Source of the DNA: Vulcanimicrobiota bacterium
GTDB lineage: Bacteria > Vulcanimicrobiota > JAJTBE01
Assembly (NCBI GenBank): GCA_021107945.1
Contig: JAIORV010000081.1
Coordinates: 1 to 47,010, forward strand
Reading direction: 5' to 3'
DNA length: 47,010 nt
Positions within the stretch are counted from its first letter, which is position 1. Each line of letters opens with the position of its first letter. A program made the position numbers and the translations under genes. Under the pieces are notes generated by a model, which saw only the letters and a program-made list of their open reading frames with translations, searched no databases and was not told the DNA's origin. Positions 221 through 41,607 of the stretch are shown piece by piece.

Positions 221-1603
221 CTATTTCAAATCCCTCGGATGGCCGCCTTTTATCCAGTGTTCCTCGATTTTCTCAAGTGAATGTCCTTTGGTCTCGGGGA
301 CATAACAATAGCAGAAAATCAGCCCGCCAACTCCTACCAGCGCATATAGCCAGAATGTGCTGGGGGCTCCTATTTTCTGAATCAGGGAAAGGAAAGTGAG
401 CGCAATAATGAAGTTGAATCCCCAGTTGGCAACCGTTGCGACACTCATCGCAAGCCCCCTTACTTTCAGGGGATAGATCTCGGAGATTATAAGCCAACAT
501 ATGGGTCCGAGGCTCACTGCAAATGAGGCGATGTACAAAATCAGACTACCGACCGCTACCCATTTCAATCCCGCTCCCAATGCCGCTGTCTCCTTGAACG
601 CAAATCCAAGCACACCCAGACTGATAATCATTCCGGTCAGTCCGACATAAAGCAGGGGTTTTCTTCCCACTCTGTCGATTAAAGCGATCGATACAACCGT
701 CATTAATACATTCACAATACCCACGCCGATTGTTGCCGATATTGCCGCCATGGCGGATTTGAATCCCGCCATCTGGAAAATGGTAGGTGCATAATAAATG
801 ACGGTGTTTATGCCTGTACATTGCTGAATTAACATCATCACCACACCAATAATCAGGGCGGGACGAAGCCAGGCAACTCCCAACTCGGACCAGGACGCCC
901 CTTTCTCTTTTGCAAAACTTTTCTTTATTTCTTCAATGTCCCCCTCAACTTGCTCCGCCGGTACAACCTTTTCAAGCACAAGGCGGGCTTCATCTTCACG
1001 CTTTTTCCCCAAAAGCCATCGGGGACTTCTAGGGAGAAAGAGCATGCCAAAACCAAGTATTGCGGAGGGTATAACTCCCACAAGAAACATGTATCGCCAA
1101 CCGTGGGGAAATGAAGCGAATCCCCTGTCAACGAGGTATGAAAGAACAATTCCTATTGTGATGGCAAGTTGATTCAGGGAAACAAGAGCCCCTCTGATCT
1201 TTGGCGGGGATATTTCTGATATATACAAAGGCACGGTAAATGACGCCACGCCTATTGCAAGACCGATGATGACCCTTCCAGCTATCAACCAGTCAACGGA
1301 ATGAGCAAGAGATGTGGCGAAAGAACCTGCGGCAAATATTATCGCCGTATAGATGATTAAGTTTTTTCTGCCTAATTTATCTGCAAGTTTTCCACTGAAC
1401 GCCGCTCCCAGAATTGCCCCGATAAGAACAGCGCTCACAACCATCTCCTGGCTCATGGGCATTAATGACCAATCTTTTTTAATAAACAAAAGCGCGCCCG
1501 ATATCACACCCGTGTCATAACCAAATAAAAGCCCTCCGGTAGCGGCAATTGCAGCTATGAAATAAACAAATCTGTTGTTCTGTTTACTTTTCTCATCAGA
1601 CAT
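221..1603 (-). CDS. sugar porter family MFS transporter
   Basis: This 460-residue protein is a 12-helix major facilitator of the sugar porter family (relatives include XylE, GalP, AraE and GLUT proteins), probably a sugar:proton symporter of the inner membrane. Visible signatures are GGLLFGYDTGVISGA in helix 1, the loop motif GKLADKLGRK after helix 2, the R-x-x-x-G-x-x-x-G motif of helix 4 (AGRVIIGLAIGV), PLYISEISP, PRSPRWLL before the central loop, QQCTGINTVIYYAPTIF in helix 7, RVGRKPLL, and PETKGHSLEKIEEHW at the C-terminus. These cover the whole family pattern, so the gene looks intact. GAGG lies 9 nt before the ATG. The rhomboid-like gene ends 31 nt upstream on the same strand, so the two may be co-transcribed. 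The sugar cannot be told from sequence alone. Confidence 0.95.
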   Translation of the reverse strand: MSDEKSKQNNRFVYFIAAIAATGGLLFGYDTGVISGALLFIKKDWSLMPMSQEMVVSAVLIGAILGAAFSGKLADKLGRKNLIIYTAIIFAAGSFATSLAHSVDWLIAGRVIIGLAIGVASFTVPLYISEISPPKIRGALVSLNQLAITIGIVLSYLVDRGFASFPHGWRYMFLVGVIPSAILGFGMLFLPRSPRWLLGKKREDEARLVLEKVVPAEQVEGDIEEIKKSFAKEKGASWSELGVAWLRPALIIGVVMMLIQQCTGINTVIYYAPTIFQMAGFKSAMAAISATIGVGIVNVLMTVVSIALIDRVGRKPLLYVGLTGMIISLGVLGFAFKETAALGAGLKWVAVGSLILYIASFAVSLGPICWLIISEIYPLKVRGLAMSVATVANWGFNFIIALTFLSLIQKIGAPSTFWLYALVGVGGLIFCYCYVPETKGHSLEKIEEHWIKGGHPRDLK

Positions 1604-1634
1604 ATCAGTTTACCTCTTTCATAAATATTTATTA

Positions 1635-2390
1635 TTAATTCTCCGGATCATCTTCCACGGTTTCAATAATATCAAAATCAGGCCTGGTTCCATCCACATC
1701 CGCCTGATCCTTCTCCCTGTGCCAATAGACCTTCTTTACTCCGAGCATGACCAGTATCCCCGTAATAACAATACCTGTTATGAAGCCTGTAATATGAGTT
1801 GAATATATGTAATTTCCATATAATGCATTGCCGGCAACGAAGAAAAGGCCAATAAGGTTTATAGCGAACCAGAAGACAATTGCAACTATTGAAGGAAGCT
1901 CGAACGGCAAAGCCTCGAACTTTGGATTCCATCTTGTACCCAAATCTAAATATATGAATCCGATCTTATTCCGTGGGTACAATATTATATATGCGGCAAT
2001 CACCGCGCTTACGGCCTCGTATGATCCTATTACATGGTCGCTTGCTCCGGGAAAAGCTCTGGTATATATGAACCCCACAAGCGCGCCCGATAGTATATAG
2101 AAAAACAGGAAGCCTATGTGTCCGAATTCATCTTCGATATTATCTCCCATCATATAAAGGAAGAGCATGCTGAAAATCGCAATTACGGGGAATTTATGAA
2201 GAAACATGTATGTGAAATATGTATATGGCTGTGGATTGGAAGTGGATAGCCCAAATGATTGAATAGCATTATCAATCTGATTTGTAATAATCAGTGTCAG
2301 GAATATCATCACATTCAGGGTAATGAGAAGGTAAGTTACATATGGATGTCTCTTTGTCGGATTTTTATCACCCACGGGAAATAAGCACAT
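1635..2390 (-). CDS. rhomboid-family membrane protein, apparently protease-dead
   Basis: This 251-residue polytopic membrane protein has the family layout of a bacterial S54 rhomboid. It opens with the typical FPVGDKNPTKRHPYVTY, continues with MFLH and MLFLYMMGDNIEDEFG, and ends with a helix carrying HITGFITG. The catalytic GASG motif is replaced by G122-S123-Y124-E125, so the nucleophilic Ser is Tyr. The oxyanion Asn of the usual H-L-x-x-N segment is Ser74, and the second His of that segment is Ile70. Only the active-site His (His199) remains. Active rhomboids cleave transmembrane substrates; by inference this one binds but does not cleave. The reading frame is intact and ends in an acidic tail. 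It probably forms an operon with the sugar porter, 31 nt downstream. The start ATG has a weak GGCGGTG upstream. Confidence 0.88.
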   Translation of the reverse strand: MCLFPVGDKNPTKRHPYVTYLLITLNVMIFLTLIITNQIDNAIQSFGLSTSNPQPYTYFTYMFLHKFPVIAIFSMLFLYMMGDNIEDEFGHIGFLFFYILSGALVGFIYTRAFPGASDHVIGSYEAVSAVIAAYIILYPRNKIGFIYLDLGTRWNPKFEALPFELPSIVAIVFWFAINLIGLFFVAGNALYGNYIYSTHITGFITGIVITGILVMLGVKKVYWHREKDQADVDGTRPDFDIIETVEDDPEN

Positions 2391-2656: not shown

Positions 2657-2875
2657 TTAGAGCCTTTCCCATATATCCCGCTCAATTCCTGCCTGTTTTA
2701 ATATTCTGGCGAGAAGTCCTTTTCCTATATTGCTCTGATGTGGATTTGGCACACGAATGGTAATATCCCCCTTATTCATAAACTGGTGCTTACCACCTGA
2801 ATATGGCCCCAAAAAACCCATTTTTCTTAAATGTCGAATGAAATCCTTTCGCTTTATGGGACCAAAGCGAGGCAC
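2657..2875 (-). CDS. hicA: HicA-family mRNA interferase toxin
   Basis: This 72-residue protein matches the HicA/YcfA double-stranded-RNA-binding fold: an N-terminal K-R-K-D-F helix, L-R-K-M-G-F, then G-G-K-H-Q-F-M containing the catalytic His and I-T-I-R-V-P-N-P before a C-terminal helix typical of the family (L-A-R-I-L-K-Q-A-G-I). HicA toxins cut mRNA and are held inactive by HicB. The gene starts with GTG, whose G is the last base of the upstream hicB stop codon (TAG overlapping GTG), so translation is probably coupled. Here the antitoxin gene comes first, which is the reverse of the E. coli hicAB order but common for this subfamily. Confidence 0.9.
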   Translation of the reverse strand: MPRFGPIKRKDFIRHLRKMGFLGPYSGGKHQFMNKGDITIRVPNPHQSNIGKGLLARILKQAGIERDIWERL

Positions 2876-3117
2876 TATGCTACCTCTCTTATGGACAGTT
2901 CAATTCCGTCAACAACAGGTAATGACAAATTTCTTGAAACCCGGAATAAGATCCACTCTTCCAGAACCTCTTCAAGTTCGTCCCGACATACTTCAAGGGT
3001 TTCCCCGTTGGCATAAACGCCCCGAAATCCTGGAATTTCTCCATAAAATGAGCCGTCTTCAGGTAGGATCTCATATTTGGCAAGATGCATGGTTTTTTGA
3101 ATGTATTTTAATAACAT
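2875..3117 (-). CDS. hicB: HicB-family antitoxin (short form)
   Basis: This 80-residue protein has the partial RNase-H-like fold of HicB antitoxins: A-K-Y-E-I-L-P-E-D-G-S-F-Y-G-E-I-P-G-F-R-G-V-Y-A-N-G-E-T-L-E, followed by an acidic helix (C-R-D-E-L-E-E-V-L-E-E-W). The last residues (L-P-V-V-D-G-I-E-L) are typical of the short subfamily, which lacks a recognisable C-terminal DNA-binding domain, so autoregulation may need another element. AAGGAG lies 6 nt before the ATG. The stop codon overlaps the hicA start by one base. The pair sits alone between the molybdenum hydroxylase and rhomboid-like genes. Confidence 0.88.
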   Translation of the reverse strand: MLLKYIQKTMHLAKYEILPEDGSFYGEIPGFRGVYANGETLEVCRDELEEVLEEWILFRVSRNLSLPVVDGIELSIREVA

Positions 3118-22656: not shown

Positions 22657-23721
22657 ATGAAAACATACGGATTCAGAGGACGCGATTTCATCAATGCAGA
22701 ACTGGATTATACTAAAGAAGAGTGGGAAACTCTTATTGAAGTTACACTTGATTTGAAGAAAAGATTCTTGATGGGCGATAATCATGCTCATTTGCTTCTA
22801 AACAAGACACTTTTTATGATATTCTACAACCAGTCTCTTCGCACACGGAACGCCTTCGAAACCGGTATGACACAGCTTGGAGGCCATGGAAACAGCCTGG
22901 AACCCGGAAAGATTTACACTCCTGCTCTCGAGGGAGAGGAAGAAGCATATTCGACGGAGAGAATATCCGATGTTGCCAGAGTACTCAGCAGAATGGGGCA
23001 TGGAATTTCAATTCGCGCATATGGCGATCCGGTCAATTGGGTATATGGAAAGAGCAACCGCGTTATCAATGAGTTCGCCAAGTTCTCCGATATTCCCGTG
23101 ATAAACATGGAATGTGATAAGTATCATCCCACACAGGCTCTCGCCGACCTGGCCACAATCAAAGAGAAATTCGGTCAATTCAAGGGCGTGAAATTCACCA
23201 TGTCATGGGCATATTCCTCAAGTCCCCATAAACCGCGCGCAGTACCGCAGTCGCTGATTCTTGCTCCCTGCAAGATGGGTATGGATGTAACATTTGCCCA
23301 CCCGAAGGGATTTGAATTGGACCCCGCTGTCATAGCGCAGTGCAAGAAATGGGCTGAAGAGAACGGCTCCCAATTTAACATGACCAACAGCATGGAAGAG
23401 TCATTTGAGGACGCGGATGTTGTATATCCCAAAGCCTGGTGTCCTGTGAACATGCTTTCGTTCCCCGAAGAGGGCAAGGTGTTCGATCCTGAAGCGGCGG
23501 CAAAGATGATGGATGCAAATAGTAGCTGGATATGCGATGAGAAAAAGATGAAACTCGCAAACAAGAATGCTTATTATATGCACTGTCTGCCTGCCGATCG
23601 TGGAATGGAAGTGTCCAACGAAGTTATAGACGGACCACAGTCCATTGTATTTGACGAGGCCGAGAACAGAATGCATTCCATCAAGGCGATACTTGCCCTT
23701 GCAATGGGAAGCAGGATGTAA
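22657..23721 (+). CDS. YgeW-like (probably knotted) carbamoyltransferase
   Basis: This 354-residue protein belongs to the aspartate/ornithine carbamoyltransferase superfamily. Carbamoyl-phosphate ligands are visible: S-L-R-T-R (60-64), H-P-T-Q (157-160) and H-C-L-P (309-312). The segment W-A-Y-S-S-S-P-H-K-P-R-A-V-P-Q (184-198) resembles the proline-rich loop that makes the knot in YgeW and N-acetylornithine carbamoyltransferases. D-V-V-Y-P-K-A-W and H-C-L-P-A-D also fit YgeW better than ArgF. Known relatives move a carbamoyl group between carbamoyl phosphate and an amino acceptor; the acceptor here is unknown. It is followed by a paralogue and carbamate kinase, so the catabolic direction is likely. 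A perfect AGGAGG precedes the ATG. Confidence 0.88.
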   Translation: MKTYGFRGRDFINAELDYTKEEWETLIEVTLDLKKRFLMGDNHAHLLLNKTLFMIFYNQSLRTRNAFETGMTQLGGHGNSLEPGKIYTPALEGEEEAYSTERISDVARVLSRMGHGISIRAYGDPVNWVYGKSNRVINEFAKFSDIPVINMECDKYHPTQALADLATIKEKFGQFKGVKFTMSWAYSSSPHKPRAVPQSLILAPCKMGMDVTFAHPKGFELDPAVIAQCKKWAEENGSQFNMTNSMEESFEDADVVYPKAWCPVNMLSFPEEGKVFDPEAAAKMMDANSSWICDEKKMKLANKNAYYMHCLPADRGMEVSNEVIDGPQSIVFDEAENRMHSIKAILALAMGSRM

Positions 23722-23757
23722 CAATTTAACTTCTAAATGATAATTCATATATGGGTA

Positions 23758-23779
23758 GCGAGGGGTAATTACCCCTCGC
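23758..23779. terminator. perfect 22-base palindrome between the two carbamoyltransferase genes
   Basis: An 11-bp perfect inverted repeat (GCGAGGGGTAA and its complement) lies 37 nt after the first carbamoyltransferase stop codon and 52 nt before the next start. There is no T-run behind it, so it may act as an RNA-stabilising or processing hairpin, or it may be one of the palindromic repeat elements common in this DNA. Confidence 0.5.
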
Positions 23780-23830
23780 ACTATACCCCTTAATTAGAAC
23801 CGGAAATAATTTATCAAGGAGGGTCTATAT

Positions 23831-24901
23831 ATGACCTCAACAGTATTAAAAGAAAAAATACTCGGGTTATTTGAAGGGATGAGGGGAAAAAGTCTGATCA
23901 CAACCCAGGACTGGAGTCTCGATGAGCTTATTGCGACACTGGAATTGGCGGAGGATATGCAGAAATACCGGTTCACCGATAAGTATGCTTATATCTTAAA
24001 AGATCGTTCATTCATGATGTTCTTTTATAATCCGTCAGTCAGGACAAGACAGAGCTTCGAAGTTGCCGCGACAGAGCTTGGCGGACACGCGCTCTTCCTG
24101 GAGCCGAAGTCAATGAGGCTAAAGACAGCAAAAACCGCAGGCGAGACAGTAGAGGACGCGGCAAAAGTAATGAGCCGTTATGCTTGTGGTATCGGAATCA
24201 GAATTCTTGAAGATAAGGTATCCTGTTATGGACAGGGAGAAGAGCTTTTAAGGGAATATGCAAAATGGTCTGAAGTTCCCATTGTCAGCATGGCACATGA
24301 TACATTTCATCCATGCCAGGGACTTGCGGATGTTATGGGATATAGAAAACACATTGGAAAGAACCTGAAAGGCAAAAAGCTTCTCCAGGTATGGGGACAT
24401 GGCGCACTCTGCCGTTCATGGTGCTCGGTGCAGGAATCACTTCTCATCGGTTCCAGGTTTGGAATGGATGTAACAGTTGCCTCTCCTCCGGGATATGATC
24501 TGGATCCTAAAGTCATTGAAATGACGAAGAAAAATTGTAGTCTGAACGGCTCGAAATTTGAAATTTCACATGATCCCGTTGAATGCTATGATGATGCAGA
24601 CATCGTCTATTCACGCAACTGGATGAGCCCGAATGCTTATAGAGATGGTGAATACCATAAGCAGGAAGAGATTGAGAAAGCCATGAAGCATACGGATTGG
24701 ATCTGTGATGCCCAGAAGATGAAACATACGAATAATGCAGTATTTATTCACCCCATGCCTATCGACCGTGGAAACGAAGTTACAGACGAAGTCGCATCAG
24801 GTAAAAGATCAATCATATATGATGTCGCCGAAGACAGGCTTCATGTCCAAAAAGCGGTTATGGCATTAACAATGTCGAAATTTTTTGCAGATAACAGATA
24901 A
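23831..24901 (+). CDS. second, paralogous carbamoyltransferase
   Basis: This 356-residue protein is related along its whole length to the preceding gene product. It has S-V-R-T-R (69-73), H-P-C-Q (160-163) and C-Y-D-D-A-D-I-V-Y. Two differences stand out. The usual H-C-L-P is H307-P-M-P310, so the conserved Cys is Pro, as in aspartate carbamoyltransferase. The region matching the knot loop (G-H-G-A-L-C-R-S-W-C-S-V-Q) is shorter and has no prolines. A different acceptor or a structural or regulatory role in a mixed complex are both possible. AGGAGG precedes the ATG. The gene is 109 nt after its paralogue and 192 nt before carbamate kinase. Confidence 0.85.
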   Translation: MTSTVLKEKILGLFEGMRGKSLITTQDWSLDELIATLELAEDMQKYRFTDKYAYILKDRSFMMFFYNPSVRTRQSFEVAATELGGHALFLEPKSMRLKTAKTAGETVEDAAKVMSRYACGIGIRILEDKVSCYGQGEELLREYAKWSEVPIVSMAHDTFHPCQGLADVMGYRKHIGKNLKGKKLLQVWGHGALCRSWCSVQESLLIGSRFGMDVTVASPPGYDLDPKVIEMTKKNCSLNGSKFEISHDPVECYDDADIVYSRNWMSPNAYRDGEYHKQEEIEKAMKHTDWICDAQKMKHTNNAVFIHPMPIDRGNEVTDEVASGKRSIIYDVAEDRLHVQKAVMALTMSKFFADNR

Positions 24902-25093
24902 CGGATTATGTAAACCGGAGGATAGATCCCGTTTCTCGCTTCTCATTTCTCACTTCCCGATTTGTAGGAGGGATGTCCCCATCCCGATAAACGATAAACG
25001 GAAAACAGACGACAGATGCCGGAAGTGAAAAATCTTGTCTCTGGTATCCATTTTCCAATTTCTTTTTTCTTTTAACTTTAAGGAGGAAATAAT
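24902..25093. other. spacer with low-complexity repeat before arcC
   Basis: No gene is visible. Bases 24925-24960 contain 'tttctcgcttctcatttctcac', and 24985-25035 contain purine-rich words, both of the low-complexity repeat kind found at 39060-39125 and 45720-45790. A small GGGATG/CATCCC hairpin lies at about 24970-24985. The segment ends in a strong AAGGAGG for arcC. Confidence 0.5.
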
Positions 25094-26035
25094 ATGTCAA
25101 AAGTTGCAATTATTGCAGTTGGCGGAAATTCACTTATAAAAGACAAGGAACACAGAAGTGTTCCTGATCAATATAAAGCTGTTTATGAAACCTCTCTCCA
25201 TATTTGTGATATGATTGAGATGGGATATAATGTGGTAGTTACCCATGGAAACGGTCCACAGGTCGGATTCATCCTTCTTCGCTCCGAGGCGGCAAAGGAC
25301 CAGTTGCACCAGGTTCCCCTCGATTCTTGCGGGGCAGATACACAAGGCGCTATAGGCTACATGTTCCAGAAAGCGCTCCATAATATCTTCCTGGACAAAG
25401 GAATTGACAAGAGCGTTGCGACAGTGGTAACACAGGTTGTAGTTGATAAGGAAGACCCGGCTTTCCAGAATCCCTCAAAACCCATAGGTCCTTTTTACCT
25501 GGAGAAAGAAGCCCGGGAAAGACAGGAAAAAGAAGGATGGGACGTTGTCGAAGATGCCGGAAGAGGCTGGAGAAGAGTTGTGGCGTCTCCAATCCCGAAA
25601 GAGATTGTCGAGGAGAAAGCTATCACAAAATTGATCAACTCCGGATTTACCGTAGTCGCAGTAGGCGGCGGCGGAATCCCCGTTTTAAAAGATGAAAATG
25701 GTCATCTGGATGGAACGGCGGCTGTAATCGACAAGGATTTCGCTTCATCATTACTTGCAAGTAATATAAAAGCAGATCTTTTCCTGATCTCCACAGCAGT
25801 TGAAAAAGTTTTCCTGAATTTTGGAAAACCCAATCAAAAAGCACTTGATAAAATGACACTTGACGAGTGCAAAAAGTATGTGGAAGAGGGACATTTCAAG
25901 CCAGGAAGTATGCTGCCCAAGATCAAGGCTGTAATTAAATTTATCGAAAATGGTGGCGAAAAGGCCATAATCACCAACCCTGAAAATATCAGAAAAGCAC
26001 TTGAAGGAAAAACCGGAACGCATATTACGAAGTAG
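25094..26035 (+). CDS. arcC: carbamate kinase
   Basis: This 313-residue enzyme converts carbamoyl phosphate and ADP to ATP and carbamate, the energy-yielding last step of several anaerobic pathways. Family marks are the start A-I-I-A-V-G-G-N-S-L, V-V-V-T-H-G-N-G-P-Q-V-G, P-L-D-S-C-G-A-D-T-Q-G-A-I-G-Y, R-R-V-V-A-S-P-I-P, V-A-V-G-G-G-G-I-P-V, D-K-D-F-A-S-S-L-L-A and S-M-L-P-K-I-K-A near the end. The gene is of normal length and looks fully functional. It is the third gene of the carbamoyltransferase cluster. AAGGAGG precedes the ATG. The source of carbamoyl phosphate is expected to be one or both upstream carbamoyltransferases. Confidence 0.97.
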   Translation: MSKVAIIAVGGNSLIKDKEHRSVPDQYKAVYETSLHICDMIEMGYNVVVTHGNGPQVGFILLRSEAAKDQLHQVPLDSCGADTQGAIGYMFQKALHNIFLDKGIDKSVATVVTQVVVDKEDPAFQNPSKPIGPFYLEKEARERQEKEGWDVVEDAGRGWRRVVASPIPKEIVEEKAITKLINSGFTVVAVGGGGIPVLKDENGHLDGTAAVIDKDFASSLLASNIKADLFLISTAVEKVFLNFGKPNQKALDKMTLDECKKYVEEGHFKPGSMLPKIKAVIKFIENGGEKAIITNPENIRKALEGKTGTHITK

Positions 26036-35604: not shown

Positions 35605-37719
35605 CTATCTTCCTAGCCGAAGGAGTTTTTCGTTCAAAATCTTCAGATCCGATTCCTCGATTTTTTCCTTTTCATACCGAATATGCCAATATGCAAGGAT
35701 AAACTCTCGGCAATTTTTCAGTATTTCTTCCTCGATTTCTTTATCCCCCAGGAAATCTGCGAATTCCATGAGGGTAAGGTGAAGTGGTCTTTTTATTTGC
35801 ATTTTTTCTATTTTTTTGTCAAATTCATCTAACAAGAGCCAAGCTTGCTCCGCGTTCTCGCTTTCCGGGATCATTCCAGATTTTGTTTTCCCCGGGCTGA
35901 TTCTCATGAAAAGTCTGAATATTCTTTTTCTTAACACAATGAGTCCGATAATGATAACGATGAGGATTACAAAGGACAGGAAGTATTTCTGATTTATGAG
36001 GGTTTTCAGGGATGTAACAACCTCGGACAGGAGCTTTTTATATTCCCCTGATTTGAAGTAATATTGCAAAAGTCCCGCTTTCATTTGTATAAAATCCATC
36101 CAGTCGGTTTTCGTGGTTCCGATTCCTCCGCCGGGTCTGGATGACGGGGGCGTGGGGTCAAATTCCATCCATCCTTTTTCCGGTATATATGCAATTACCC
36201 ATGCGTGGGCGTCCTTTTCCCTTGCCACATAATAATCCCCCGGCATTCTCTTCTCATGTGCAATATACCCGACGACATACCGTGAGGGAATGTCAATGGA
36301 GCGGAGCAGAAGCACCATAGCGGAAGCGAAATATTCACAATGGGCATCCCGTTTATATTGCAGGAATTCCATTATGGGATCCATCCCTCTTTTCTCAAGC
36401 TTTATCCCGGTTTTGTATTTAAAATTTTTCTGCAGGTACTGTTCAATGGCAAATATCTTTCCAATCCTTGATTTTCTTCCTTTTGTTACTTCTTCTGCAA
36501 TTTCTTTTAAATCGCCCCGCATCTCATCCGGCACAATCATATCTTCTCTTGTATTTTCGTTGATGTCGGTTGGAATTTTTCGCATCGAATTTGGAGATAA
36601 AGCGGCATAATTATCCACAGGCACGCCGGGGCATTCAACATTACCCAGGGAGTCTTTCTTCAGGAAACCTGTTTTTAGCGATGCGAATCCGGATCCACGC
36701 GGAAGATAAAGGAGGTTATTTCTTCTAAGGGACACAAAATATGTGCCCAAATTCCAGGAATAATCGGGAATGTTTGCAAGCTTTTCCGGGGGAGCAAGGG
36801 GGAAAATGGGATTGTTTCCCGGAATAATTTCCCTGTTAATTCCCTCCGGCAGGGAATCCCCGGCTGTCATTTCTTCATATTTCGACTGAGTTGTCCAGGC
36901 GCCTTTTCCATATCTGTTATAAACACGCCCTCTTAATACCGATATATTTCCCTTACTCAAAATCCTTATTACTACTCGTTTCGATTGGAGCATATCCTCC
37001 ATGGTGCCAAGTTGAGATGAAGAAGAGAACGAAGCTGGAGACATAACCATATTCATTTTTTTCATCAAGTATTGCAGCGCGGTGCCTTCATAGTTCTTTG
37101 TAACTACACCCACAACCAGGCTTACAATTAAAACCGTAATGATACTTATTAATAACGGAGCGGATTTAAACTTAATAAACGGGGTGTCGGACTCAACTTT
37201 GTAATACGAAAGTTTCATAATATCAATGAAGTAAAATATGGAAGCAATCGCGAACATACAGAACAGGACACCATTGATAATATTCACCCTCCACGGGGAA
37301 AGAACCGATGAGAAGACCACGATAATAATCGAAGACACATATGCAAGGTAAAGCTCACTGGTTTTTTTCACCTTATAGACTGTAACAAGAATCATAAAAT
37401 AGAGCATGAACGCCAGAAAATTAATAAGCAAGCCAAGCATATTCGCCTTGCTGAAATCATGGAATATCTGTCCCCATTGAAAGACTATAAGAAAAACAAG
37501 AGAGAGGGAAAAAGGAACAAGAATCTCAAGGAATCTTGGAATACGGACTCTGAATTTCACTAATTTTGAAAGAAAAAGCAAAGCCGGGAATATAAATGCA
37601 AGGATGTAGAACTTTGTATTGATCGCAAACAATATCGAAGCAATACTGAAGACAACGAGACCCCAGAACGGTGTATCCGTATGCTTTTGCTTTAAATAAT
37701 CCTTCTCGTACCGGTGCAT
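35605..37719 (-). CDS. transglutaminase-like membrane protein (second copy)
   Basis: This 704-residue protein has several N-terminal transmembrane helices (about residues 18-205), an extracytoplasmic transglutaminase-like domain and, near residues 575-595, a further helix followed by a cytoplasmic DUF4129-like tail. The papain-like triad is complete: Cys in A-H-C-E-Y-F-A-S-A-M, His in K-D-A-H-A-W-V and Asp in W-M-E-F-D-P-T-P-P. Proteins of this layout usually sit in operons with MoxR ATPases and DUF58 proteins, and are thought to act in the cell envelope as peptidases or crosslinkers; the substrate is unknown. The gene is 41 nt downstream of the DUF58 gene. It is clearly a paralogue of the protein at 39457-41607. 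Confidence 0.9.
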   Translation of the reverse strand: MHRYEKDYLKQKHTDTPFWGLVVFSIASILFAINTKFYILAFIFPALLFLSKLVKFRVRIPRFLEILVPFSLSLVFLIVFQWGQIFHDFSKANMLGLLINFLAFMLYFMILVTVYKVKKTSELYLAYVSSIIIVVFSSVLSPWRVNIINGVLFCMFAIASIFYFIDIMKLSYYKVESDTPFIKFKSAPLLISIITVLIVSLVVGVVTKNYEGTALQYLMKKMNMVMSPASFSSSSQLGTMEDMLQSKRVVIRILSKGNISVLRGRVYNRYGKGAWTTQSKYEEMTAGDSLPEGINREIIPGNNPIFPLAPPEKLANIPDYSWNLGTYFVSLRRNNLLYLPRGSGFASLKTGFLKKDSLGNVECPGVPVDNYAALSPNSMRKIPTDINENTREDMIVPDEMRGDLKEIAEEVTKGRKSRIGKIFAIEQYLQKNFKYKTGIKLEKRGMDPIMEFLQYKRDAHCEYFASAMVLLLRSIDIPSRYVVGYIAHEKRMPGDYYVAREKDAHAWVIAYIPEKGWMEFDPTPPSSRPGGGIGTTKTDWMDFIQMKAGLLQYYFKSGEYKKLLSEVVTSLKTLINQKYFLSFVILIVIIIGLIVLRKRIFRLFMRISPGKTKSGMIPESENAEQAWLLLDEFDKKIEKMQIKRPLHLTLMEFADFLGDKEIEEEILKNCREFILAYWHIRYEKEKIEESDLKILNEKLLRLGR

Positions 37720-37760: not shown

Positions 37761-39035
37761 CTAAAGGTAATCAAACCCTCTCTTGATCGATTCCGAATCC
37801 AGAACCTGCACGGATCCGAATACTCCCTCAATGTAGCCTATGTCAATATCTTCTTTCCTGTTCGAAACCAGGAAAACTTTCATTTCCACTCCCATCTCTT
37901 TTAATCTCAGGAGGAATTCCTTTCTCTCCTCGTCCCATCCCAGGAGGAGGACAACCACCGCGGAGATTCTTGATAAATCATCCATAAGCAATGGTTCAAT
38001 CTCGCCATAAGGTTTTTTGCGGCAGACATCTAAACAGGCAAGGATATCCAATATCTGGTCGAGATACGCAAGCGCCCTGCCTGCCTGAAGATAATAGATG
38101 TTCGGCCCGGCGGCAATGAGGTCTATGATATATTCCTGCCTTTCCAGGTAATCGGATATGGATGCGGCAAGTGATAGCGAGGATTCCATCGCCTCATAGT
38201 CGATATCGGGTGAATTATCCGGGATATATGTGTCAATCAAAAGAGCGAGCCTGCAGTAATACTCTTCCTGGAAGACTTTTACAATAGGCTTGTTGAGTCT
38301 TGCCCATGATTTCCAATGGATATGACGAAGTGAATCGCCGTCCCGGAATTCCCTTGTTCCCACAAATTCCGTAGATTCACCGATGTTGGAGGCGAGTGCT
38401 ATTCCTCCAGGCTGCAGTTTTCTGCTAACGGGGATATTGAACCCGATCAGTGGCTTGAATTGCGGATAGACCAGGATTCTTCTCTCCTTTTTATACCGGT
38501 ATCCCCATTTCATCACGCCCAGGGGAAAAGGTGAATCCACCCGCAGAGATTTTAGCCTGTAGTCGCCCCTTTTTTGGGCAATGAGATTAAGTCTGAATTT
38601 TATCTTTCCGCCTTTTTTCAGTATAGGTAACATGATTCCCTGATCCTGCTCCTGGACAATCATCGGGTGGAGTTTCACTTCCCTGAAAAATGTGAAATAA
38701 GCATTTTTGTTCGAGATGTTTTTTATGATTATCTCCTCCGCCACCGAGGATCCCGATGAAGTTCTCGTGGGAGTGGTTATGGTTATATCAAGGCGTGGTC
38801 TTAATATTCTCTCAAGAAACGGGGACATGATGAATACGACCATCAGGAAGAGGACAAGTGAATAGAGCAGAAAAGTACCGTAAAATACTACACTGCTTAA
38901 AAGTCCAAAGACAAGCCCCATTATGAACAGGTATCTGCCTGTATATGTGAGGCGATAAACATAGAACTCCCGGAGGAATGCGATTATAATTGATTTGAAT
39001 TTTCTTTTTTTATTGTTTTTGTTAAACATCTTCAT
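37761..39035 (-). CDS. DUF58 domain protein
   Basis: This 424-residue protein has two hydrophobic helices near the N-terminus (about residues 34-72), a beta-rich middle region and the DUF58 signature F-V-G-T-R-E-F-R-D-G-D-S-L-R-H-I-H-W-K-S-W-A-R, followed by a von Willebrand A-like fold (L-A-L-L-I-D-T-Y). DUF58 proteins are membrane-associated partners of MoxR-type AAA ATPases and transglutaminase-like proteins. No strong ribosome binding site is seen at this ATG. It is flanked by two paralogous transglutaminase genes on the same strand, and the MoxR partner is absent from the window. Confidence 0.9.
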   Translation of the reverse strand: MKMFNKNNKKRKFKSIIIAFLREFYVYRLTYTGRYLFIMGLVFGLLSSVVFYGTFLLYSLVLFLMVVFIMSPFLERILRPRLDITITTPTRTSSGSSVAEEIIIKNISNKNAYFTFFREVKLHPMIVQEQDQGIMLPILKKGGKIKFRLNLIAQKRGDYRLKSLRVDSPFPLGVMKWGYRYKKERRILVYPQFKPLIGFNIPVSRKLQPGGIALASNIGESTEFVGTREFRDGDSLRHIHWKSWARLNKPIVKVFQEEYYCRLALLIDTYIPDNSPDIDYEAMESSLSLAASISDYLERQEYIIDLIAAGPNIYYLQAGRALAYLDQILDILACLDVCRKKPYGEIEPLLMDDLSRISAVVVLLLGWDEERKEFLLRLKEMGVEMKVFLVSNRKEDIDIGYIEGVFGSVQVLDSESIKRGFDYL

Positions 39036-39456: not shown

Positions 39457-41607
39457 TTATTCGATAATATCAAGTTTATCTTTTAAATCCCGGATGTCAT
39501 CTTCCTCCACATTTTCCCTCGCATAGCGTAAATTACAGTATGATTTCAGGAACAACCTGCATTTCTCCATTTCCTCTTCTCCAATATTATTGTCGCCCAA
39601 AAAGCTTATTAATTCCGTCAGTGTAAGGTTTTTGGGACGGAGAATACGACGTTTTTCAAGGTATTCATCGAATCGGGAGATAATATGTCGAAATTTCACT
39701 TCAATTTCATCTTCCTGTTTAAATGAATCCTGCGATTCGCTTTTTCTCAGAAAGGAAATGATCCCGAGAATTCTTTTCCTCCCGATTAATATTATAGCAA
39801 AAAGCACAAAAATTATTATCATATTTCTGGAAGCAGGATTTTTCAGAAGCTCGGTGGAAAGCGAAAGAATCTCGGAGAAGAACATTCGTATGGAGCCTGA
39901 TCGCAAGGATAAAAAAAGTGAATAGAATTTTGTGTAAAGGAAGTCAATCCAGTCATTTTTTGGTGAATTATCACCATAGCCTGGCATGGACGTCGGGGGA
40001 GTGGGATCGAATTCTACCCATCCCTTTGCCGGTAAATATGCAAGAACCCAGGCGTGGGCATCTTTTGCACGCACAACATAGTATCTCCCCGGGAGCTTGT
40101 ATTCATGCACGATGAATCCGACAACATACCTGGACGGAATGTCGATTGAGCGAAGCATAAGCACCATTGCCGAGGCAAAATATTCACAATGCGCCGATCT
40201 TTTATGGACCAGAAACTCTTTCACGGGATCCATTCCCTTTTTAGTGAGCTTTATTCCCCTTTTGTATTTGTAATTCTCCTGCAGGTATCTCTCCACACTA
40301 AATATTTTCTGAAGCCGGGTTTTATCTCCCTGTGTAATATCAAGGGCAATATCCCTCACTTCCGGGAAAAGCTCATCGGGGACGGACAAGTCATACGAAT
40401 CGGGAGCCCCGCCGGGAATGCCTGATGATGTCGGAGATTCACCCGGTTTTATAATATTATATCCGCTCACCGATCCTTCCGCAATCTCGATATTCCCCTT
40501 GCTGTCTTCTGATAAGACAGGTGAGTTTATAGAAATACATCCGTTTTTTTCTGGTAGAAAGACAATATTGTTTCCCTGAAGAAAAATCATGTAACGGGAT
40601 ACGGAGAAAATGCCTGGATCCTGAGTCTTCATGGTTTCTTGTCGGAATGGGGCGAAAATATTCTCATATAAACCTTCCGATCGCGCTTTTTTCACAATAT
40701 TCGAGTCGGCGGGTAACGGGGAAATCTGCATTCTTTTCGAGTTTATCTTCCACCGGCCTTTTTTATACTTGTTATAGATTCTGCCCCGGACATTTGAGAT
40801 ATTTCCCTTTTCGAATATCCTCATTACAACCTTGCGGGATTGGAACATGTTTTCCATTCTGCCCAGGTATGTCGTTGACGGAAATATGGATGAGGGAAGC
40901 ATTCTGCCAAGGCGTGAAAGGTAACTCTCTATTCTTGACTCGAATCTTTTTGCCGATCTTCCCAGAAAGAAAATTGCAAATATAAGAACGGGAAGGAGGA
41001 TTATGAGGGGAATCACTCTGTATTTTTTGAAAAGCGTTTTGGAATTAGCTATGGGATATGCCAGCAAAGAAAGATCGATAAACAGGAAGATTGATGAAAG
41101 CATGTATAGCGAAAGAAAAAGAACATTCAACATCTGACTCATATCCACCGGGTAAGAGGAAATGAACACGATGAGAAAAGACAGCAGGTAAGTGATGTAT
41201 ATCTCAAACCTGCTTTTCATCTTGTAGCATTTAAGCAAAATCAGGAGCGCAAGGAAATTCGCAAGCTCATAAAAAAAGTAATTTCCAAGTGTACTTATGG
41301 AATAATTATACGGAACCGGCAGGATAACTCCCATGATTATTGCAACGACAAGAAAAGCAACCGCAATCAAAGCTTCAATCCCAAGGCCTATTTTAACCCG
41401 CCATTTCAGAAAAAATGAGAGGACCACAAGTGGGAGAACAACCATCATCAAGTATGCTTTGAAATTTATTCCCAACATTAACAGGGCGACAATAACCGCA
41501 ATAAGCCCCCAAGTGGGAATATCGGCACTTACCGGGGGATCCTTTTCCCGGATATAATTGTCTATTCCGGTAAGAATATTTTGTTTTCCGGTATCAGATG
41601 ATTTCAT
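39457..41607 (-). CDS. transglutaminase-like membrane protein (first copy)
   Basis: This 716-residue protein has the same design as the product of 35605-37719: N-terminal transmembrane helices (about residues 27-215), a transglutaminase-like core with Cys in A-H-C-E-Y-F-A-S-A-M, His in K-D-A-H-A-W-V and Asp in W-V-E-F-D-P-T-P-P, one more helix near residue 600 and a charged C-terminal tail ending with a DUF4129-like F-L-K-S-Y-C-N-L-R-Y-A-R segment. The two paralogues share the catalytic region almost word for word but differ strongly in the N-terminal half. It lies 421 nt upstream of the DUF58 gene with repeat DNA between. The start ATG has no clear ribosome binding site. Confidence 0.9.
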   Translation of the reverse strand: MKSSDTGKQNILTGIDNYIREKDPPVSADIPTWGLIAVIVALLMLGINFKAYLMMVVLPLVVLSFFLKWRVKIGLGIEALIAVAFLVVAIIMGVILPVPYNYSISTLGNYFFYELANFLALLILLKCYKMKSRFEIYITYLLSFLIVFISSYPVDMSQMLNVLFLSLYMLSSIFLFIDLSLLAYPIANSKTLFKKYRVIPLIILLPVLIFAIFFLGRSAKRFESRIESYLSRLGRMLPSSIFPSTTYLGRMENMFQSRKVVMRIFEKGNISNVRGRIYNKYKKGRWKINSKRMQISPLPADSNIVKKARSEGLYENIFAPFRQETMKTQDPGIFSVSRYMIFLQGNNIVFLPEKNGCISINSPVLSEDSKGNIEIAEGSVSGYNIIKPGESPTSSGIPGGAPDSYDLSVPDELFPEVRDIALDITQGDKTRLQKIFSVERYLQENYKYKRGIKLTKKGMDPVKEFLVHKRSAHCEYFASAMVLMLRSIDIPSRYVVGFIVHEYKLPGRYYVVRAKDAHAWVLAYLPAKGWVEFDPTPPTSMPGYGDNSPKNDWIDFLYTKFYSLFLSLRSGSIRMFFSEILSLSTELLKNPASRNMIIIFVLFAIILIGRKRILGIISFLRKSESQDSFKQEDEIEVKFRHIISRFDEYLEKRRILRPKNLTLTELISFLGDNNIGEEEMEKCRLFLKSYCNLRYARENVEEDDIRDLKDKLDIIE

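Follow-up and report, generated by a model that had tools for sequence, protein, structure and literature searches.

A rhomboid-family protein lacking the catalytic serine and oxyanion residues, encoded before a sugar porter in a Vulcanimicrobiota bacterium

The window (the whole 47,010-nucleotide stretch of DNA that was analysed, which is an entire contig) carries near one end a gene for a rhomboid-family protein. This gene precedes that of a sugar porter on a common strand; the porter starts 31 bp after the rhomboid stop codon and ends 221 bp from the end of the contig. The features of the locus are as follows:

221–1603, minus strand: MFS sugar porter, 460 aa (TIGR00879, SP family, 422 bits)
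1604–1634, minus strand: 31-bp gap between rhomboid and porter, with AAAGAGGT before the porter ATG
1635–2390, minus strand: probable rhomboid-family pseudoprotease, 251 aa, ATG to TAA, with six predicted transmembrane helices
1794–1796, minus strand: His199, kept at the alignment position of the catalytic TM6 His (alignments with relatives)
2016–2027, minus strand: G122-S123-Y124-E125 in place of GxSG, with Tyr for the catalytic Ser and Glu for Gly (S and G in 41 of 41 relatives)
2169–2183, minus strand: I70-A71-I72-F73-S74 in place of HLxxN, without either oxyanion residue, His or Asn (41 of 41 relatives have H and N)
2196–2198, minus strand: His65, at the position of GlpG H145 and kept (alignments with GlpG and relatives)
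Residues about 17–36, 68–89, 91–112, 124–137, 167–187 and 191–215: transmembrane helices of the rhomboid (predicted model)
Residues 216–251: acidic tail of the rhomboid, of low confidence (predicted model)

Promoter-like matches in the rhomboid–porter region were at chance level only, and an RNA family scan of the whole window gave no match. Upstream of the rhomboid gene lies a HicAB-like toxin–antitoxin pair (2657–3117, minus strand). Its first member, on the rhomboid strand across a 266-bp gap, is a 72-aa ORF (2657–2875) that we take to be HicA-like, and beyond this is a gene for an 80-aa UPF0150/HicB-like protein (PF21748, 102 bits). Elsewhere in the window, two carbamoyltransferase-like genes are followed by a carbamate-kinase-like gene (22657–26035, plus strand; names from reading the sequence), near which are a DUF4147 gene, found by the scan, and a HEAT-repeat-like gene, named by reading. 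Two similar membrane proteins of 704–716 aa (35605–37719 and 39457–41607, minus strand) flank a DUF58 protein (37761–39035); the former has a transglutaminase core and the latter appears alike by eye.

The 1635–2390 frame is assigned to the rhomboid family by its PF01694 score of 61.9 bits (cut-off 22.6), the direct alignment with GlpG being weak (E 0.05, phmmer). The predicted model consists of six long helices, with a mean pLDDT of 66.7 obtained from a shallow alignment of 7 rows. The first helix begins at about residue 17, and the model has no N-terminal cytosolic sensing domain. GlpG is its best structural match (Z 17.0, rmsd 3.0, 167 aligned residues), followed by iRhom1 (Z 14.7), iRhom2 (13.2) and a chain of the human ERAD complex (12.1). 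As modelled, the protein retains a GlpG-like rhomboid fold.

Alignments with relatives place H150, L151 and N154 of GlpG at I70, A71 and S74, G199-L200-S201-G202 at G122-S123-Y124-E125, and H254 at His199 (outside the phmmer-aligned segment, the GlpG numbers are those we take to be correct). The 41 relatives were chosen for closeness at a profile cut-off of 200 bits, the profile being built mostly from active proteins and giving the window protein itself 188.6. The two copies of the window sequence (L003 and L004), a partial sequence (L035), one containing an X (L036) and a dead distant paralogue (L029) were excluded. Across the complete listing, all remaining rows above 143 bits keep the Ser, and keep the His wherever the column was read (L035 has a gap there and L036 an X). 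A preliminary description of this DNA had read GxSG as G122-S123-Y124-E125, with Tyr for Ser, and HLxxN as an unrelated segment ending in Ser74, with the oxyanion Asn gone. Both readings are borne out by the alignments and by the DNA, in which bases 2016–2027 translate to Gly-Ser-Tyr-Glu and bases 2169–2183 likewise read directly as listed. Its further statement that only His199 remains is correct for that residue and too narrow overall, as His65 and Gly122, the first Gly of GxSG, are kept too.

A shifted register that makes Ser123 the Ser of GxS was rejected: Ile121, and not Gly, stands two residues before it, so Ser123 cannot take that place. No GxSG or dyad appears in any register. Around both motifs no other frame contains a rhomboid motif, and HxxxN is present in no frame, both other frames of that segment containing stops. 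A compensating frameshift hiding HLxxN or GxSG, or an assembly error, was rejected because the other frames have stops or no motif and because the substitutions are spread over the entire protein. The rhomboid is almost certainly catalytically dead, and is probably a genuine pseudoprotease.

In a 42-row tree the window rhomboid is sister to L005, an active rhomboid of genome G017 (support 97/91; the tree tool flags the placement of so long a row as unsure). It is a dead rhomboid that arose inside a bacterial subfamily whose members are otherwise active. Its end branch measures 1.82 changes per column, against 0.61 for L005, and carries no stop. The 149 genomes of the phylum yielded no close orthologue, and in a scan of 84,980 species nothing exceeded about 38% identity over a segment (single-sequence patterns, with which distant relatives may be missed). 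A search of viral contigs with the single window protein returned no relative; a search with the alignment returned one, L136, in which the catalytic motifs are present.

Of 25 non-catalytic positions with at least 90% conservation, the window rhomboid keeps 16 and loses 9, whereas active relatives keep a share of 0.85–1.0 (leave-one-out, median 0.96). Since the model is GlpG-like and yet only 16 of these 25 positions are kept, the fold has been retained while constraint on the sequence has relaxed. The claim of the preliminary description that the fold is otherwise well preserved thus holds for the predicted structure and fails for the sequence. Clustering of the lost positions around the motifs was considered and is unsupported: 10 of 13 lost conserved positions lie within 8 residues of the motifs, as against 10 of 19 kept (Fisher p 0.27, not significant).

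The lost positions and the long branch, together with the redundancy provided by two other rhomboids of the genome that keep catalytic motifs, are consistent with a recently inactivated gene that is free of selection and decaying, intact by chance and accidentally co-transcribed with the porter. This explanation is nevertheless unlikely. The 251-codon frame has neither stop nor frameshift signature, third-position GC is ordinary, and synonymous codon use is normal (0.060, within the range of −0.009 to 0.084 for 19 other window genes). The helices are kept, as are the scaffold residues E86, G90, G202, F203 and G206. In a neutral mutation simulation 25% of runs were free of stops at 10% amino-acid change, 3% at 30% and 0.7% at 40%, so stops are expected once change exceeds about 30%. 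As neutral change produces stops quickly and the window frame stays open, long maintenance is favoured, and the protein is probably maintained and functional, not the product of a gene in decay. The stop-codon argument cannot date the catalytic loss because the long branch includes time before it; the enzyme was probably still active along part of that branch, and selection after the loss is therefore unproven. With catalysis lost and the ORF intact along a long branch, the non-proteolytic role put forward in the preliminary description is the likelier reading.

The two other rhomboids with catalytic motifs lie on other contigs of the genome, which also encodes one FtsH, so that proteolysis is covered elsewhere. 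One paralogue, on contig C71 of the window genome (G000; L001, L047:1342–3846, minus strand), has a GASSA motif, with Ser for the second Gly, and is joined in one 872-codon frame to a long tail with what appear by eye to be TPR-like repeats. The presence of such paralogues would suit an iRhom-like decoy or dominant partner of the active rhomboids of the cell, which would bind common substrates without cutting them. The match of the predicted model to iRhom chains (Z 12–15) fits the same explanation, and iRhoms are reported to inhibit rhomboid-dependent signalling (PMC3149277). At 251 aa, however, the window protein is without iRhom-type extra domains, and its gene shows no link to the paralogues on their separate contigs, which makes a decoy distinctly unlikely.

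The close spacing of the two genes on one strand, with the rhomboid first, and the lack of a second copy of the porter in the window genome at E 1e-5 would be expected if the rhomboid were a dedicated chaperone or subunit that stabilizes the porter instead of delivering it to degradation. At E 1e-40, however, 46 of the 149 genomes of the phylum have a porter relative (that of the window counted), yet at the 19 porter-centred loci whose flanks were checked the porter never has a rhomboid as its neighbour, and a chaperone of this kind is very unlikely. Similarly, no ORF matching the porter occurs in any of 19 rhomboid-centred loci, among which a porter could go undetected because ORF picking missed the ORF of the rhomboid itself in several (for example L035, L039, L041, L043, L044 and L048); some are also short (L045, 3130 bp). 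Among the matches listed, porter and rhomboid on one contig are by eye far apart (about 58 kb on contig C9 of G017 and about 47 kb on contig C9 of G118). The conserved linkage to sugar porters that had been suggested was not borne out, the pair occurring in the window genome only. In what was searchable it is no conserved system, and linkage seen in a single genome counts for little. Continued proteolysis through another nucleophile (Ser123, Ser128 or Tyr124) is extremely improbable: His199 is kept and Ser123 adjoins the catalytic position, but both oxyanion residues, His and Asn, have been lost, all 41 relatives have Ala at position 123, and Ile121 leaves GxS unmet in the shifted register.

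If the protein is indeed maintained and functional, a role as a membrane-protein adaptor is somewhat favoured. The combined reading of a dead rhomboid that serves as a functional adaptor, with its client unspecified, is put forward tentatively. Such a protein could still recognize, by way of the rhomboid cavity and lateral gate, the transmembrane helices of clients, which might then be held, or handed to the single FtsH of the genome, without cutting. A precedent comes from Bacillus subtilis YqgP, which presents the transporter MgtE to FtsH; it does so without need of its own activity but with its active site unobstructed, and the activity-independent role was shown with the dead mutant S288A (PMC7231995). 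The most available client would be the sugar porter, whose gene begins 31 bp further on, also on the minus strand, although its assignment as the client is doubtful. A still more specific proposal, that the protein is a non-cutting quality-control receptor dedicated to the co-transcribed porter, an independently evolved bacterial counterpart of Derlin-type ERAD handling with a Tyr-Glu-His cavity tuned for binding, is improbable. The loss of 9 of the 25 conserved non-catalytic positions, more than in any active relative, speaks against an adaptor, and early decay would give the same picture. The proposed function, though plausible, is unproven, and the window gene alone is weak evidence because it has no close relatives.

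The phylum was surveyed for rhomboids in 15 genomes, chosen for many rhomboid matches or for earlier hits of interest, in which PF01694 gave 71 places, 70 of them read. Both Ser and His are present at 52, one or both are lacking at 11, and 7 are unreadable at one of the two columns. Nine of the 11 are without Ser and two have Ser but no His. Dead rhomboids are thus a regular feature of these genomes. The window protein differs from the other dead ones in belonging to an otherwise active subfamily, and scores 61.9–62.9 bits against PF01694, compared with at most 47.3 for the nine Ser-less rhomboids of the survey. A dead group in genus g15 (L127, L129, L132, L134 and L135; 46–87% identity) is syntenic in five genomes, each of a different species, directly before a protein of 766–774 aa that is itself 92–98% identical between genomes. 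The loci are:

L158, 5805–6617 (G016): g15 dead rhomboid
L159, 5602–6414: g15 dead rhomboid
L160, 5595–6407: g15 dead rhomboid
L161, 5866–6675: g15 dead rhomboid
L162, 5711–6526: g15 dead rhomboid

Four pairs within this group give dN/dS values (NG86) of 0.08, 0.125, 0.137 and 0.30, and the active rhomboids of the genus give 0.05–0.065. PF01694 scores of the group are only 21.7–36.1 bits, with L135 just under the family cut-off, and no catalytic His is present where the position was read. With the reservation that these scores are weak, the g15 group shows that a catalytically dead rhomboid-like protein can be maintained in bacteria by purifying selection.

Rhomboid pseudoproteases have mostly been studied in eukaryotes. 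In the literature searched, no paper dealt with a bacterial rhomboid that is naturally a pseudoprotease, or with a rhomboid–sugar porter gene pair. The view that such a pair is not a described system therefore stands for the exact pair in that literature; it does not extend to rhomboid–transporter links or to an activity-independent bacterial role, both of which are published (PMC7231995). The nearest relatives are the bacterial rhomboid proteases of the DNxED subfamily, which have family and fold in common with the window protein (the sister L005 at 32% identity) and share with it a conserved N-terminal P, D, P and the DN-ED-G motif. Active members keep the H, N, GxSG and H, whereas the window rhomboid keeps the last His only; compared with its alignment partners its L1 is shorter and its L5 longer by a few residues.

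The likeness to YqgP, also called GluP, would lie by analogy in a rhomboid handling a polytopic transporter, as is proposed for the window protein. The same source (PMC7231995) cites an earlier study, performed without rescue, in which YqgP/GluP was reported to affect glucose export. YqgP/GluP is, however, proteolytically active and has a metal-sensing domain at its N terminus, whereas the window protein is naturally dead and lacks this domain. The adaptor role of YqgP requires its N-terminal cytosolic domain (PMC7231995), and the analogy is incomplete because the 251-aa window protein has none.

The iRhoms and Derlins resemble the window protein, to judge from its model, in combining a rhomboid fold with the absence of catalytic residues (Z 12–15 for iRhom and ERAD-complex chains). 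They differ in being eukaryotic, the iRhoms with extra domains; in sequence, no relation beyond common membership of the superfamily was found, and the losses presumably occurred separately. The g15 dead group is, like the window protein, bacterial and without the catalytic residues, but belongs to another lineage, with weak PF01694 scores, no catalytic His where read and a 766–774-aa neighbour, and is a better subject than the window gene for the study of bacterial pseudo-rhomboids. Natural dead bacterial rhomboids such as these would allow the question of why non-cutting rhomboids persist to be tested in simple organisms.
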